The position numbers and the translations under genes are program-made. A model generated the notes under the pieces. It made no database searches. It was not told the DNA's origin and worked only from the letters and a program-made list of their open reading frames with translations. Shown piece after piece: positions 37,158 through 42,434 of a stretch of 43,793 nt of DNA (within the stretch, counting starts at the first letter, position 1; each line of letters opens with the position of its first letter). The stretch comes from Bacteroidetes bacterium GWF2_35_48 (GTDB lineage: Bacteria > Bacteroidota > Bacteroidia > Bacteroidales > GWF2-35-48), in assembly GCA_001769125.1 (NCBI GenBank), contig MEOG01000013.1:1-43793 (forward strand). The letters are read 5' to 3'.

Positions 37158-38528
37158 ATGAAGATTTCAATAGTATTTACCCTGTTTATTTTTAATATTT
37201 TTTACTCTTTTTCTCAGTCGCTTCCCGACCGTATCCCCTTTTTTAAAGACGGACTCTGGGGTTTTTGCGACACTACGATGAAAGTGGTTGTTCCCTGTAA
37301 ATATTTAAAGGTGCAGCCGTTCAATGGAAATTATGCTGCTGTTCTCGATTCATTTGCGTACTGGGGTTTTATCAACAAAGCAGGTAAAGAGGTTTTGCCT
37401 CCAAAATATGAAGAAGTAGCGGGATTTGTTCATAATTATTGTCGTGTAAAATCGGGTGATAATTATGGTTTTATTGATGCAAAACTCAGAGAACTTGTTC
37501 CTCCTCTTATCCCGCAAATATGTGAAGACATGAATAAAATGCTTTCAGAAAATGGCATTGCGGTTTGCGGAAAATTGGTTTTCGATACAACCGGAAAAAC
37601 AATGGAATTAAAAGAATACGAAGCTACCGGCTATTTTTCAGAAGGACTCCTATGGGTAGAAAAAAACAAAAAAGGCGGCTTTATTGACAGAACCGGAAAA
37701 ATCGTAATACCCATAAATAATCTTGAAGAAGGCGAAACAAAGCCCCTGTTCTCAGAAGGACTCTGCGGTGCTCGTAAAAAAGGAAGCTGGGGATATATTG
37801 ACACAACAGGCAAAGAAGTTATTCCATTTGATGATAAATACGACAGCGGATATCCATTTAATAAAGGCTTTGCTGCTGTTAGCAAAAAATGGAAATGGGG
37901 ATTTATTAATAAAACCGGAAAAGAAATTGTTCCGCTTCAATACGATTTTATTCAGCCCTTTAAAGAAGGTATGGCTATTGCCGTGAAAAACGATAAGTTC
38001 GGATATGTGGATGAAGCAGGCAAAAATGTTATTACCTGCCAATTTCAGAGAGGTACAGATTTCCGTAATGGAAGCGCAATTATCAATCACCTTGCAAAAA
38101 GATATCTGATAGATAAAAAAGGAAAGAAAATTTCTAAAGATTATGAGACAATTTACTTTGTAAATAAAGGTAACTTTTATATGACAGAAAATAAAAGCAA
38201 ACGTTTCGGGGTTATTTCGCATAATGGTAAAGAATTACTGCCAACAAAATACAAAGATGTAACCTGGTACGATTATCAATTAGACATTGGAATTGTGATG
38301 GTTGAAAATATAAAATATGGTCTTATCAATTCTAAAGGAAAATTTATTATTCCTGCCGAATACGATTATCTTGAATATCGTGGCAGTGGCCTTATTTATG
38401 CTGAATTCTATAATCTCGATGGCAAAGGAACAGAAATTAAAAATGTGTATGTTGGCGATAAACTGCAATCCCGCGCCTGGCTCCAGCGTGGCTTTTTCAA
38501 TATAAATGGAAAAAAGTTTTTTGAATAA
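37158..38528 (+). CDS. Secreted WG-repeat protein
   Basis: 456 aa. Signal peptide about 1-20 (cut before Ser or Gln in SFSQS). About ten WG repeats follow, each a three-stranded beta unit of 30-40 residues of the form K-x-G-[YF]-I-[DN]-x-x-G-K-x-[VI]-[IV]-P-x-x-[YF]. Examples are YWGFINKAGKEVLPPKYEEV, GSWGYIDTTGKEVIPFDDKY and KWGFINKTGKEIVPLQYDFI. Exported, possibly periplasmic or surface; molecular role not known. Starts 6 bp after the second AAA_14 gene. Confidence 0.9.
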   Translation: MKISIVFTLFIFNIFYSFSQSLPDRIPFFKDGLWGFCDTTMKVVVPCKYLKVQPFNGNYAAVLDSFAYWGFINKAGKEVLPPKYEEVAGFVHNYCRVKSGDNYGFIDAKLRELVPPLIPQICEDMNKMLSENGIAVCGKLVFDTTGKTMELKEYEATGYFSEGLLWVEKNKKGGFIDRTGKIVIPINNLEEGETKPLFSEGLCGARKKGSWGYIDTTGKEVIPFDDKYDSGYPFNKGFAAVSKKWKWGFINKTGKEIVPLQYDFIQPFKEGMAIAVKNDKFGYVDEAGKNVITCQFQRGTDFRNGSAIINHLAKRYLIDKKGKKISKDYETIYFVNKGNFYMTENKSKRFGVISHNGKELLPTKYKDVTWYDYQLDIGIVMVENIKYGLINSKGKFIIPAEYDYLEYRGSGLIYAEFYNLDGKGTEIKNVYVGDKLQSRAWLQRGFFNINGKKFFE

Positions 38529-38598
38529 TCCTATTTATAAGTAGTTTTTGTAATTTTGACATACGATTGCAAATTTACACAAAGAATAAAATGATTAT

Positions 38599-39028
38599 GC
38601 CACAGATTATTTAAATCTGTGATAACCTGCCTTGTCGGCAGCTACCGTGTGGACACAAATCGTTTTATTATAATACGCTCGCATCCGCCTTAGCAGATAA
38701 AAATGCGTTTAAGATGACCCTTGAGAGCTTATCCCGCTTGGGGGATTTACCTGATTGCCTTGCCTGATTGAGCAAGTGAATCGGCTGGCAGGTGAATAAC
38801 CCCGAGCTTTAGCTCGGGGGTTCTAAAACAAATGTAAATTAAAGATTTTGGCGGAAAATTTGCTACATCACAGAGTTTATTTTGTACAAATTAATGCTTG
38901 CAAATTTTGTGACAAAATCACAACATTGTATTGTACGAGAAGACAGGAGTTTTTAATAAACTTTCTCTCTTCTCAAAGATGTGTCCACACGGTAGCTTAT
39001 CGGCAGACAGGTCCGTGTAATCTGTGGC
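38599..39028. mobile_element. MITE-like element with terminal inverted repeats
   Basis: 430 bp without a gene. Ends are perfect 11-bp inverse complements, GCCACAGATTA (38599-38609) and TAATCTGTGGC (39018-39028). A second, 18-bp perfect pair lies inside them: AGCTACCGTGTGGACACA (38640-38657) and its complement at 38980-38997; the stretch between the pairs is also partly complementary. The centre carries the GC-rich hairpin CCCCGAGC/GCTCGGGG (38800-38819). No transposase is encoded and no certain target duplication is visible. The whole gene-free gap is 38529-39112. Confidence 0.6.
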
Positions 39029-39112
39029 AAATATTAAAAAAAAGAATTTAAGCATGATGTCAATTGGGGTTTTTAGGTATTTTTACTGATAATCAAAAAG
39101 AATAATTCATTC

Positions 39113-40414
39113 ATGACCTACCAGCAAACCCTCGATTATATTTTCAGTCAGCTTCCCATGTTTCACAGGATTGGAGCGGCTGCATACAAGGCAAATCTTG
39201 ATAACACGCTTGCATTAGATAATTATTTCGGATATCCCCATAAAAAATTTAAAACAATACATGTTGCCGGAACAAACGGTAAAGGCTCTGTTTCTCATAT
39301 ACTGGCATCCGTTCTGCAACACGCGGGTTATAAAACGGGACTCTACACTTCACCACATCTGAAAGATTTCCGCGAACGTATTAAAATCAATGGTGTTACG
39401 ATTTCAGAAAAAAGTGTTACTGAATTTTTCATCAAGCACAAGCCTGTTTTTGAGAAAATAAAACCTTCGTTTTTTGAAATGACCGTTGCGCTTGCCTTTG
39501 ATTATTTTGCACAGCAAAATGTTGATATTGCAGTTATAGAAGTTGGTTTGGGAGGTCGTCTTGACTCCACAAACATTATAACTCCGGAGCTTTCTGTAAT
39601 TACAAATATAAGTTTCGATCATACAGCGCTTTTGGGAAAAACTTTAAAAAAAATTGCAAAAGAAAAAGCAGGCATTATTAAACCGGGAATTCCTGTTGTT
39701 GTTGGAGAAAGTCAGCCGGAAACAAACTCTGTTTTTATTGAAAAATCAAAAAAATTAAAATCAACAATTTTTTTTGCAGACAAAGAATACAAGGCACTTC
39801 TGACCGGAAAAAATTCGGAAAAACAGGTATTGGATATTTTTTCATGTAAAGAAAAAAATAAGATACTATACAAAGAGCTGCAAGCGGGTCTATTGGGTCA
39901 TTATCAGAAACAAAATATTCAAACTGTTTTAAAGAGTATAGACGTTCTTGTTGATATTGGTTACGAGCTGAATAAACAAAATATATATAAAGGAATCAAA
40001 GATGTTGTTACGACTACAGGCTTACTCGGTCGCTGGCAGATACTGGAAAGAAAACCGTGTATGATTTGTGATACAGGTCATAATATCGCAGGAATAAAAA
40101 TGGTTTTAAAACAAATAAAAGAAACCCCGCATAAAAAATTGCATTTTGTTTTTGGCTGCGTGAATGATAAAGATGTAGATGCGATTTTAAAAATTTTACC
40201 CAAAAGAGCGAAGTATTATTTTTGTCGCGCTTTGGTTCCTCGCGCCCTCGATGAAAAAGTTCTCGCTTCCAAAGCAGCATGTTTTGGTTTATCGGGTATT
40301 ATTTTCAACAATGTTCAGGATGCCGTATTAAATGCAAAAAAGAACGCAATGCCCGAAGATTTAATTTTTATCGGAGGCAGTACTTTTGTTGTTGCAGATG
40401 CCTTGAATAGCTAG
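39113..40414 (+). CDS. folC: Bifunctional folylpolyglutamate/dihydrofolate synthase
   Basis: 433-aa Mur-ligase-like enzyme adding Glu to dihydropteroate and to folates, with ATP. The P-loop GTNGKGSVSHIL (53-64) is followed by TGLYTSPHLKDFRERI, the Mg2+/carbamoyl-lysine region EVGLGGRLDSTN (about 144-155), and the C-terminal domain marks ILERKPCMICDTGHN and VFGCVNDKD. ATG at 39113 starts MTYQQTLDYIFSQLPMF, the phylum's usual FolC start. Transcription start not recognised; the upstream MITE-like element ends 84 bp away. Confidence 0.95.
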   Translation: MTYQQTLDYIFSQLPMFHRIGAAAYKANLDNTLALDNYFGYPHKKFKTIHVAGTNGKGSVSHILASVLQHAGYKTGLYTSPHLKDFRERIKINGVTISEKSVTEFFIKHKPVFEKIKPSFFEMTVALAFDYFAQQNVDIAVIEVGLGGRLDSTNIITPELSVITNISFDHTALLGKTLKKIAKEKAGIIKPGIPVVVGESQPETNSVFIEKSKKLKSTIFFADKEYKALLTGKNSEKQVLDIFSCKEKNKILYKELQAGLLGHYQKQNIQTVLKSIDVLVDIGYELNKQNIYKGIKDVVTTTGLLGRWQILERKPCMICDTGHNIAGIKMVLKQIKETPHKKLHFVFGCVNDKDVDAILKILPKRAKYYFCRALVPRALDEKVLASKAACFGLSGIIFNNVQDAVLNAKKNAMPEDLIFIGGSTFVVADALNS

Positions 40415-42364: not shown

Positions 42365-42434
42365 CTGGGTTTCGACTCCCTGCCTACCCTGCCTCGCCGG
42401 CAGGCAGGCGGACAGGCAGGCGCTCAACACCCAG
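42365..42434. repeat. GC-rich nested palindromic element
   Basis: CTGGGT (42365-42370) pairs with ACCCAG (42429-42434). Inside, CCTGCC (42388-42393) pairs with GGCAGG (42399-42404), and further GGCAGG copies give alternative pairings. Strikingly GC-rich against an AT-rich background; related CCTGCC/GGCAGG hairpin at 17374-17402. Confidence 0.6.

Follow-up and report, generated by a model that had tools for sequence, protein, structure and literature searches.

Among IS4-family elements, the IS50 subgroup is described in the relevant part of PMC2266710 by an end consensus of CW------Y---CA-A--W-, a length of 1350-1550 bp, and direct repeats of 8-9 bp. Insertion of an IS4-family element into palindromes is reported in the passage of PMC1525189 that concerns ISRm22, nine copies of which were found inserted in REP elements, at the palindrome axis. 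The window analyzed here, a stretch of 43,793 nucleotides from contig MEOG01000013.1 of Bacteroidetes bacterium GWF2_35_48, carries before folC a 354-bp element with IS4-type ends. Judged from its sequence and from that of its relatives, this element is very probably a non-autonomous MITE that moves by cut-and-paste through an IS4-family, Tn5-like transposase acting in trans, duplicates 9-12 bp of its target, and prefers the centers of palindromes. The parts of the locus are listed here in order of position.

38598..38609, no strand: outer inverted repeat TGCCACAGATTA, belonging to the insertion site and outside the MITE
38626..38630, no strand: CCTGC, left arm of the palindromic target, the one-repeat version of which (CCTGCCTTGTCGGCAGACAGG) is found unoccupied elsewhere in the genome
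38631..38641, plus strand: left direct repeat CTTGTCGGCAG, target duplication
38642..38995, plus strand: the mobile element proper, a 354-bp MITE with IS4-type ends; the same ends occur in 30 complete relatives (itself included)
38642..38657, plus strand: left terminal inverted repeat (TIR) CTACCGTGTGGACACA, followed inward by AATC
38800..38819, plus strand: hairpin B, the GC-rich central hairpin of the first-pass annotation
38844..38919, plus strand: stem C, with arms GATTTTGGCGGAAAATTTGC and GCAAATTTTGTGACAAAATC and a 36-base loop that differs among copies
38980..38995, minus strand: right TIR, with TCTT next to it on the inner side when read from the end
38996..39006, plus strand: right direct repeat CTTATCGGCAG, one mismatch to the left one
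39007..39011, no strand: ACAGG, right arm of the palindromic target
39018..39029, no strand: outer inverted repeat TAATCTGTGGCA, partner of TGCCACAGATTA
39113..40414, plus strand: folC, the downstream gene (TIGR01499, E 1.7e-113, above cut-off)

Two nested inverted repeats had been claimed for the locus, a terminal one of 11 bp and a subterminal one of 18 bp. Both are real and perfect, the outer one having a length of 12 bp rather than 11 (38598-38609/39018-39029, zero mismatches) and the inner one the 18 bp stated (38640-38657/38980-38997, zero mismatches), of which 16 bp, also perfect, are the element's own TIR. When the 18-mer was sought in the window at up to three mismatches, it matched its own two arms only, and it was absent from 100 shuffles. 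The mobile unit was placed at 38642-38995 because the direct repeats, CTTGTCGGCAG and CTTATCGGCAG, which are identical at 10 of 11 positions, sit immediately outside CTACC...GGTAG. The body is non-coding, as had been proposed, insofar as no listed ORF of at least 40 aa lies wholly within these coordinates; two ORFs of 67 and 45 aa overlap them, both extending beyond the right end. No match to 38642-38995 was found in plasmid and phage collections at E 1e-5.

The window's own genome (G000) is a draft of 142 contigs and 5.98 Mb. A search of it with 38598-39029 returned at least 161 matching pieces, the best 40 of 107 first-look candidates having been scored, while CTACCGTGTGGACACA at up to one mismatch matched 68 times versus zero for a reversed-pattern control. 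Pairing of opposed ends among the fetched loci, at most 700 bp apart and with up to two mismatches per end, yielded 30 complete elements, 140-388 bp long, and unpaired ends lie outside these on contigs C2, C41, C89, C99, C81, C126, and C5. The sequence is therefore not single-copy, whereas a single copy was half of what had been named in advance as speaking against a transposon. On the other half, conservation in place before folC in relatives, a search for folC in the one other genome of the family covered, G001 of the same genus, was run with no positive control, and its lack of a hit carries no weight. Direct repeats border 29 of the 30 copies; 24 are perfect (9-12 bp), bearing out the expectation of short target duplications at several copies, five have one mismatch (the window copy among them), and one copy, L063, has none. 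Their length is 9 bp in two copies and 10-12 bp in 27, with one copy left unassigned, and is mostly 10-11 bp. L063 is identical inside to L056, and its missing direct repeat may therefore be due to a later rearrangement of the copy. In the seven closest copy pairs, the interiors are 95.7-100% identical and the flanks 46-56%, the latter taken for the level expected of unrelated sequence in the global alignment used; the window copy and the copy on contig C93 share 97.2% identity inside and have unrelated flanks.

Insertion sequences that carry a transposase between the same ends (16 of 16 bp) are present in other genomes. Among the matches listed, they comprise a 1459-bp element of an uncultured Pedobacter and two 1433-bp elements, one in a Flavobacteriales MAG and the other in a Bacteroidales MAG; read by eye, the direct repeats are AATGCACTATT (11 bp) for the first and CCTTTAGGTG (10 bp) for the second, and none was seen for the third. 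The two transposases tested, those of the Bacteroidales and Pedobacter copies, both score above cut-off against NCBIfam NF033590, of the IS4 family (E 1.9e-94 for the Bacteroidales protein), and against Pfam Tnp_DNA_bind and DDE_Tnp_1, with Dimer_Tnp_Tn5 just below. The Bacteroidales transposase also matches its Tn5 counterpart in the PDB (E 2.4e-26), and its translation contains the Y-(2)-R-(3)-E-(6)-K signature, read by eye as YSCRWTIEEVFRTLK. Just inward of the TIR, 29 of the 30 MITEs carry AATN on one side and TCTT on the opposite one; at the same positions, the Pedobacter element and the ends in G001, a genome of the same genus as the window's, have AATA/TCTT, the Flavobacteriales element AATA/TCTC, and the Bacteroidales element TTTA/TCTC. 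G001 carries the ends at nine places, seven of them close to a contig start and two close to a contig end (each at roughly 140 bases or less), and the sequences inside are of two kinds, one encoding the C-terminus of the transposase and one corresponding to the other end of the insertion sequence.

A full-length relative with a transposase had been suggested as the thing to look for, and it exists in other genomes as described; within the 142-contig draft of the window's genome, no matching autonomous insertion sequence was found, a partner that MITEs usually, though not necessarily, have in their own genome. A single IS4_3-type gene of that genome scores above cut-off; it runs off the end of contig C30 and is associated with a divergent end, CTACCGTGTACCCATA (12 of 16 bp), and one weak match below cut-off lies on C42. 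The divergent end is present at the contig ends of both C30 (L281) and C82 (L099), where the flanks point to a 9-bp repeat, GTTACAAAC, within a palindrome; paired in this way, the two could be halves of one IS4-type element. Elsewhere, Flavobacterium sp. HJJ has a 205-bp MITE at two loci (L107 5647-5851 and L169 3703-3907) with the same 16-bp ends, another interior, and direct repeats of 8-9 bp, and in Runella zeae (L174) a pair of ends, read at the ends only, lies 4.4 kb apart. Single matches to the 16-mer in other phyla (L104, L106, L110, L159, and others; Christensenella, Planctomycetaceae, Granulosicoccus, Pseudomonas) may be due to chance.

Removing the element together with one copy of the repeat restores CCTGC[CTTGTCGGCAG]ACAGG, and this 21-mer, CCTGCCTTGTCGGCAGACAGG, is found unoccupied at C39:29432, C43:13625, and C93:29749, among the places listed. 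More generally, the pattern CCTGYCT-N3-7-AGRCAGG occurs unoccupied at 83 places in the genome versus none for its reversed-pattern control. By a strict rule, the target arms are present on both sides of 20 of the 30 elements and 10 lack the full pair. The mean palindromic match of the reconstructed targets is 0.49; 5000 positions drawn at random from the same loci give 0.27 (sd 0.12), a control not matched for composition. Read together at the level of sequence, occupied and empty sites establish a landing preference of the element for the center of a dispersed CCTGYCT...AGRCAGG palindrome. The window itself contains an unoccupied target palindrome, CCTGCCTCGCCGGCAGGCAGG, at 42388-42408, 3.4 kb downstream of the element.

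The first-pass annotation had called the locus a non-autonomous transposon, a reading borne out by the copy number, the direct repeats at 29 of 30 copies, the near-identical copies in unrelated flanks, and the transposase-bearing relatives in other genomes. The element has the attributes of a MITE, being short, non-coding, and bounded by TIRs, with dispersed copies in unrelated flanks, a target duplication, and ends in common with an autonomous element. As to how it moves, we infer that an IS4-family, Tn5-like transposase, supplied from elsewhere, would recognize the 16-bp ends, cut out the 354-bp unit, and join it to the middle of a palindrome, and that repair of the resulting gap of about 11 bases would duplicate 9-12 bp of target, roughly one helical turn. 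The IS4-type element that would have supplied the enzyme has perhaps since been lost from the genome, or a matching autonomous copy may be concealed by the draft state of the assembly (142 contigs). The likely order of nesting is a CCACAGATT palindrome, then a CCTGCC palindrome, then the MITE. The target palindrome would thus have lain within a larger CCACAGATT...AATCTGTGG repeat before folC, which is why two nested repeats are seen there.

The element as such is of an ordinary kind, and its interior is the one part that could go beyond this. The GC-rich central hairpin noticed at the outset is present at 38800-38819 as CCCCGAGC-TTTA-GCTCGGGG and constitutes hairpin B of a three-hairpin module, A-B-C, the third inverted repeat of the window (38844-38863/38900-38919, 85% complementary) being stem C. 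Hairpin A is missing from the window copy, which has B and C. Stem C is recognized by its motif in 22 of the 30 elements, the other eight lacking it; with simple motifs, hairpin B accompanies it in 19 of the 22 and the complete A-B-C in 13. A wider set of 54 modules from seven genomes, in which motif-defined stem C and hairpin B were both required and identical stem Cs counted once, has hairpin B preceding stem C throughout, the presence of B being imposed by the selection. The 28 modules of the window's genome in this filtered set are fewer than the copies actually there; 14 lie between the ends, one has a single end, and 13 have neither. A covariance model of the module, applied to 295 genomes of the order (best 10 candidates per genome), matched at least 13 at E 1e-4, the window's own included. 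With the same number of candidates and strict filters, G001, of the same genus, gave zero matches at that level. Upon inspection, A, B, and C were all present in G028, G235, G268, G141, and G068, and B and C, with no clear A, in G224; the other six genomes have only a partial match.

Comparison of the modules indicates that stem sequences change across genomes with pairing retained. For stem C, the inner helix forms 93% of its pairs when each arm faces its own partner, versus 59% with arms exchanged across genomes (seven genomes and 11 distinct arm pairs, of which the one from L039 was parsed wrongly and has 4 of 8 pairs). Corresponding values are 100% versus 58% for hairpin A and 99% versus 57% for hairpin B. 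The 54-module set required hairpin B and stem C, so the pairing of A and B was favored by selection; since A and B were chosen by pairing, stem C provides the one near-fair test, its offsets having also been picked for best pairing. The outer helix of stem C is nearly invariant (88% own, 87% swapped) and therefore uninformative on pairing. Covariation inside the window's genome is slight, with a double change in 2 of 27 pairs, one in a hairpin B and one in a stem C.

The module also occurs without the CTACC ends, both in the window's genome and in the six inspected genomes of the order. Two of the four modules in G235 lie within another perfect inverted repeat, AGGGCTTGCTGAATAAC, of 15-17 bp, where shuffles reached at most 10 and 13; the other five inspected genomes showed no flanking repeat that clearly exceeded the longest in shuffles, one G028 copy having 12 bp versus 10. 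In the window's genome, two modules without CTACC ends (L048 and L038) are flanked by the inverted repeats TTCAGAACTCCT (12 bp) and GCAGATAAAAAGG (13 bp), which might represent a third kind of end. Hairpin B often carries a further repeat, GGTTATTGAGCGAAGTCGAAAT, in its loop (L033, L034, L035, L041, L051, L053, and L065, all in the window's genome), as though hairpin loops were insertion sites for short repeats. On contig C68 of G028 (L253), stem Cs are grouped in one cluster of about 1.3 kb and another of about 1.5 kb, other repeated pieces lying between the two. The integron attC motif is RYYYAAC/GTTRRRY. A likeness of stem C to attC sites was considered and rejected, as the arms do not fit this motif and the clustered copies in G028 show no recognizable cassette array.

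It is conceivable, although less likely than not, that A-B-C is a functional unit under structural selection, as single-stranded DNA or as RNA, that spreads by itself and has been picked up as cargo by two or more unrelated MITE families, the CTACCGTGTGGACACA family here and the AGGGCTTGCTGAATAAC family elsewhere in the order. If so, a single conserved hairpin module would be using exchangeable transposon ends as its vehicles. Retaining its stems as their sequences change between genomes, the module perhaps matters more than the MITE. Because it is found both free-standing and inside two sets of inverted repeats, selection for a function can be tested against mere carriage.

Hairpins A and B are plausibly REPs of the RAYT type, as suggested by pairs of A-B type next to RAYT genes together with an excess of hairpins there. 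There are 10 RAYT-family matches in the window's genome and seven in G001; directly upstream of three of the seven lie hairpin pairs of A-B type, about 10-15 bases apart. Beside 20 RAYT loci, taken from 37 matches and with some flanks shortened by contig ends or Ns, perfect hairpins average 2.8 per up to 600 bp, versus 0.18 in 34 control stretches farther away, and 5 of the 20 have none. One RAYT gene of the window's genome (L205, contig C105) has arrays of alternating hairpin types on both sides, with 13 perfect hairpins in 600 bp, and in G001 (contig C139, L208 1950-2460) units of about 34 bp, gaattaccccgtgcttcagctcaggaataaagct, are repeated in tandem just downstream of a RAYT-family gene. 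RAYT genes as carriers of the whole module were rejected, since stem C was present at 0 of 17 RAYT matches in the two same-genus genomes within about 1.5 kb on each side (less at contig ends). The module motifs as a set occur beside none of the 10 RAYT matches of the window's genome, and among 20 RAYT loci listed, lone, scattered motif matches occur at five, none pairing into stem C.

Other readings of the locus start from features that are real. The outer 12-bp inverted repeat is perfect, which favors the whole 430 bp as the mobile unit, with CCACAGATTA ends, as first annotated; the TGCCACAGATTA/CCACAGATTA arms flank both sides of only 1 of the 30 copies and one side of two more, and were therefore assigned to the insertion site. 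The 30 were found by their inner ends, and direct repeats stand immediately outside those ends in 29. The element stops at the inner 16-bp repeat, and the larger boundaries are very improbable as those of a general unit. Movement as single-stranded DNA by a RAYT or IS200-type route, with the CTACC ends as mere extra hairpin arms, draws on the resemblance of the interior hairpins to RAYT-adjacent repeats and on the 10 RAYT-family matches in the genome. Such a route is contradicted by the 9-12 bp direct repeats at 29 of 30 copies, by ends in common with insertion sequences carrying an IS4-family transposase, and by the absence of stem C within about 1.5 kb (less at contig ends) on each side of the 17 same-genus RAYT loci, and we regard it as extremely unlikely.

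Strong folding and a location before folC might suggest a fixed, single-copy structured regulator of that gene. Relative to shuffles, 38598-39029 folds with z -8.4 as single-stranded DNA and z -10.7 as RNA of the other strand. Against this, the copies are dispersed at many unrelated loci, that on C93 being nearly identical in unrelated flanks, and a promoter and terminator scan, which covered sigma-70-type consensus sites only, showed no excess over shuffles; the probability left to a folC regulator is negligible, and it was rejected. A known RNA family was likewise discarded, Rfam giving none at gathering score in the window at 38400-39200 or at 11 further loci, and the lowest sub-threshold E-value (snR46, 0.011) being judged chance. 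A 354-bp MITE with IS4-type ends thus remains by far the best account, and the locus offers a worked example of an IS4/Tn5-like MITE family landing in dispersed Bacteroidota palindromes, in which direct repeats and unoccupied targets accompany parent-type ends.

In the open-access papers covered, no account of an IS4/Tn5-like MITE of Bacteroidetes was found, by which we do not claim absence from print, and the listed papers containing GTGTGGACACA as a text string were unrelated by title. Like the RUP, NEMIS, ERIC, and Nezha MITEs, as these are presented in the pertinent part of PMC3733652, the element is short and non-coding, has TIRs, and is of a kind thought to be moved in trans; unlike them, its interior is mostly a recurring hairpin module, and an unsystematic look noticed no relic of the parent insertion sequence beyond the ends. 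Its hairpins A and B resemble the pairs upstream of the three G001 RAYT genes and in this recall the REPs and REPINs of RAYTs, to judge from the portions of PMC3116915 and PMC3733652 that treat them, whereas stem C lies near no RAYT checked.

Closer likenesses are found within the IS4 family. Direct repeats of about one helical turn, as in that family, occur in the MITEs (9-12 bp) and in the Pedobacter (11) and Flavobacteriales (10) elements. Set beside the IS50 (Tn5) subgroup as characterized in the relevant section of PMC2266710, the ends, CTACCGTGTGGACACAAATA and CTACCGTGTGGACACATCTT, fit the consensus, the full-length relatives (1433-1459 bp) fall within the size range, and the transposase is Tn5-like with YREK; the direct repeats of the MITEs, mostly 10-11 bp, differ from the 8-9 bp given there. 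Ends and length fit and direct repeats do not, and the putative parent was therefore filed as IS4 family, IS50-like, and not as IS50 proper. Palindrome targeting by an IS4-family element is already known from ISRm22, as told in the corresponding passage of PMC1525189 on it and other REP-targeting insertion sequences, and the present locus, like ISRm22, has IS4-family ends in a dispersed palindrome. It differs in that the insertions here are MITE derivatives, in a Bacteroidota host, and in another family of palindromes.
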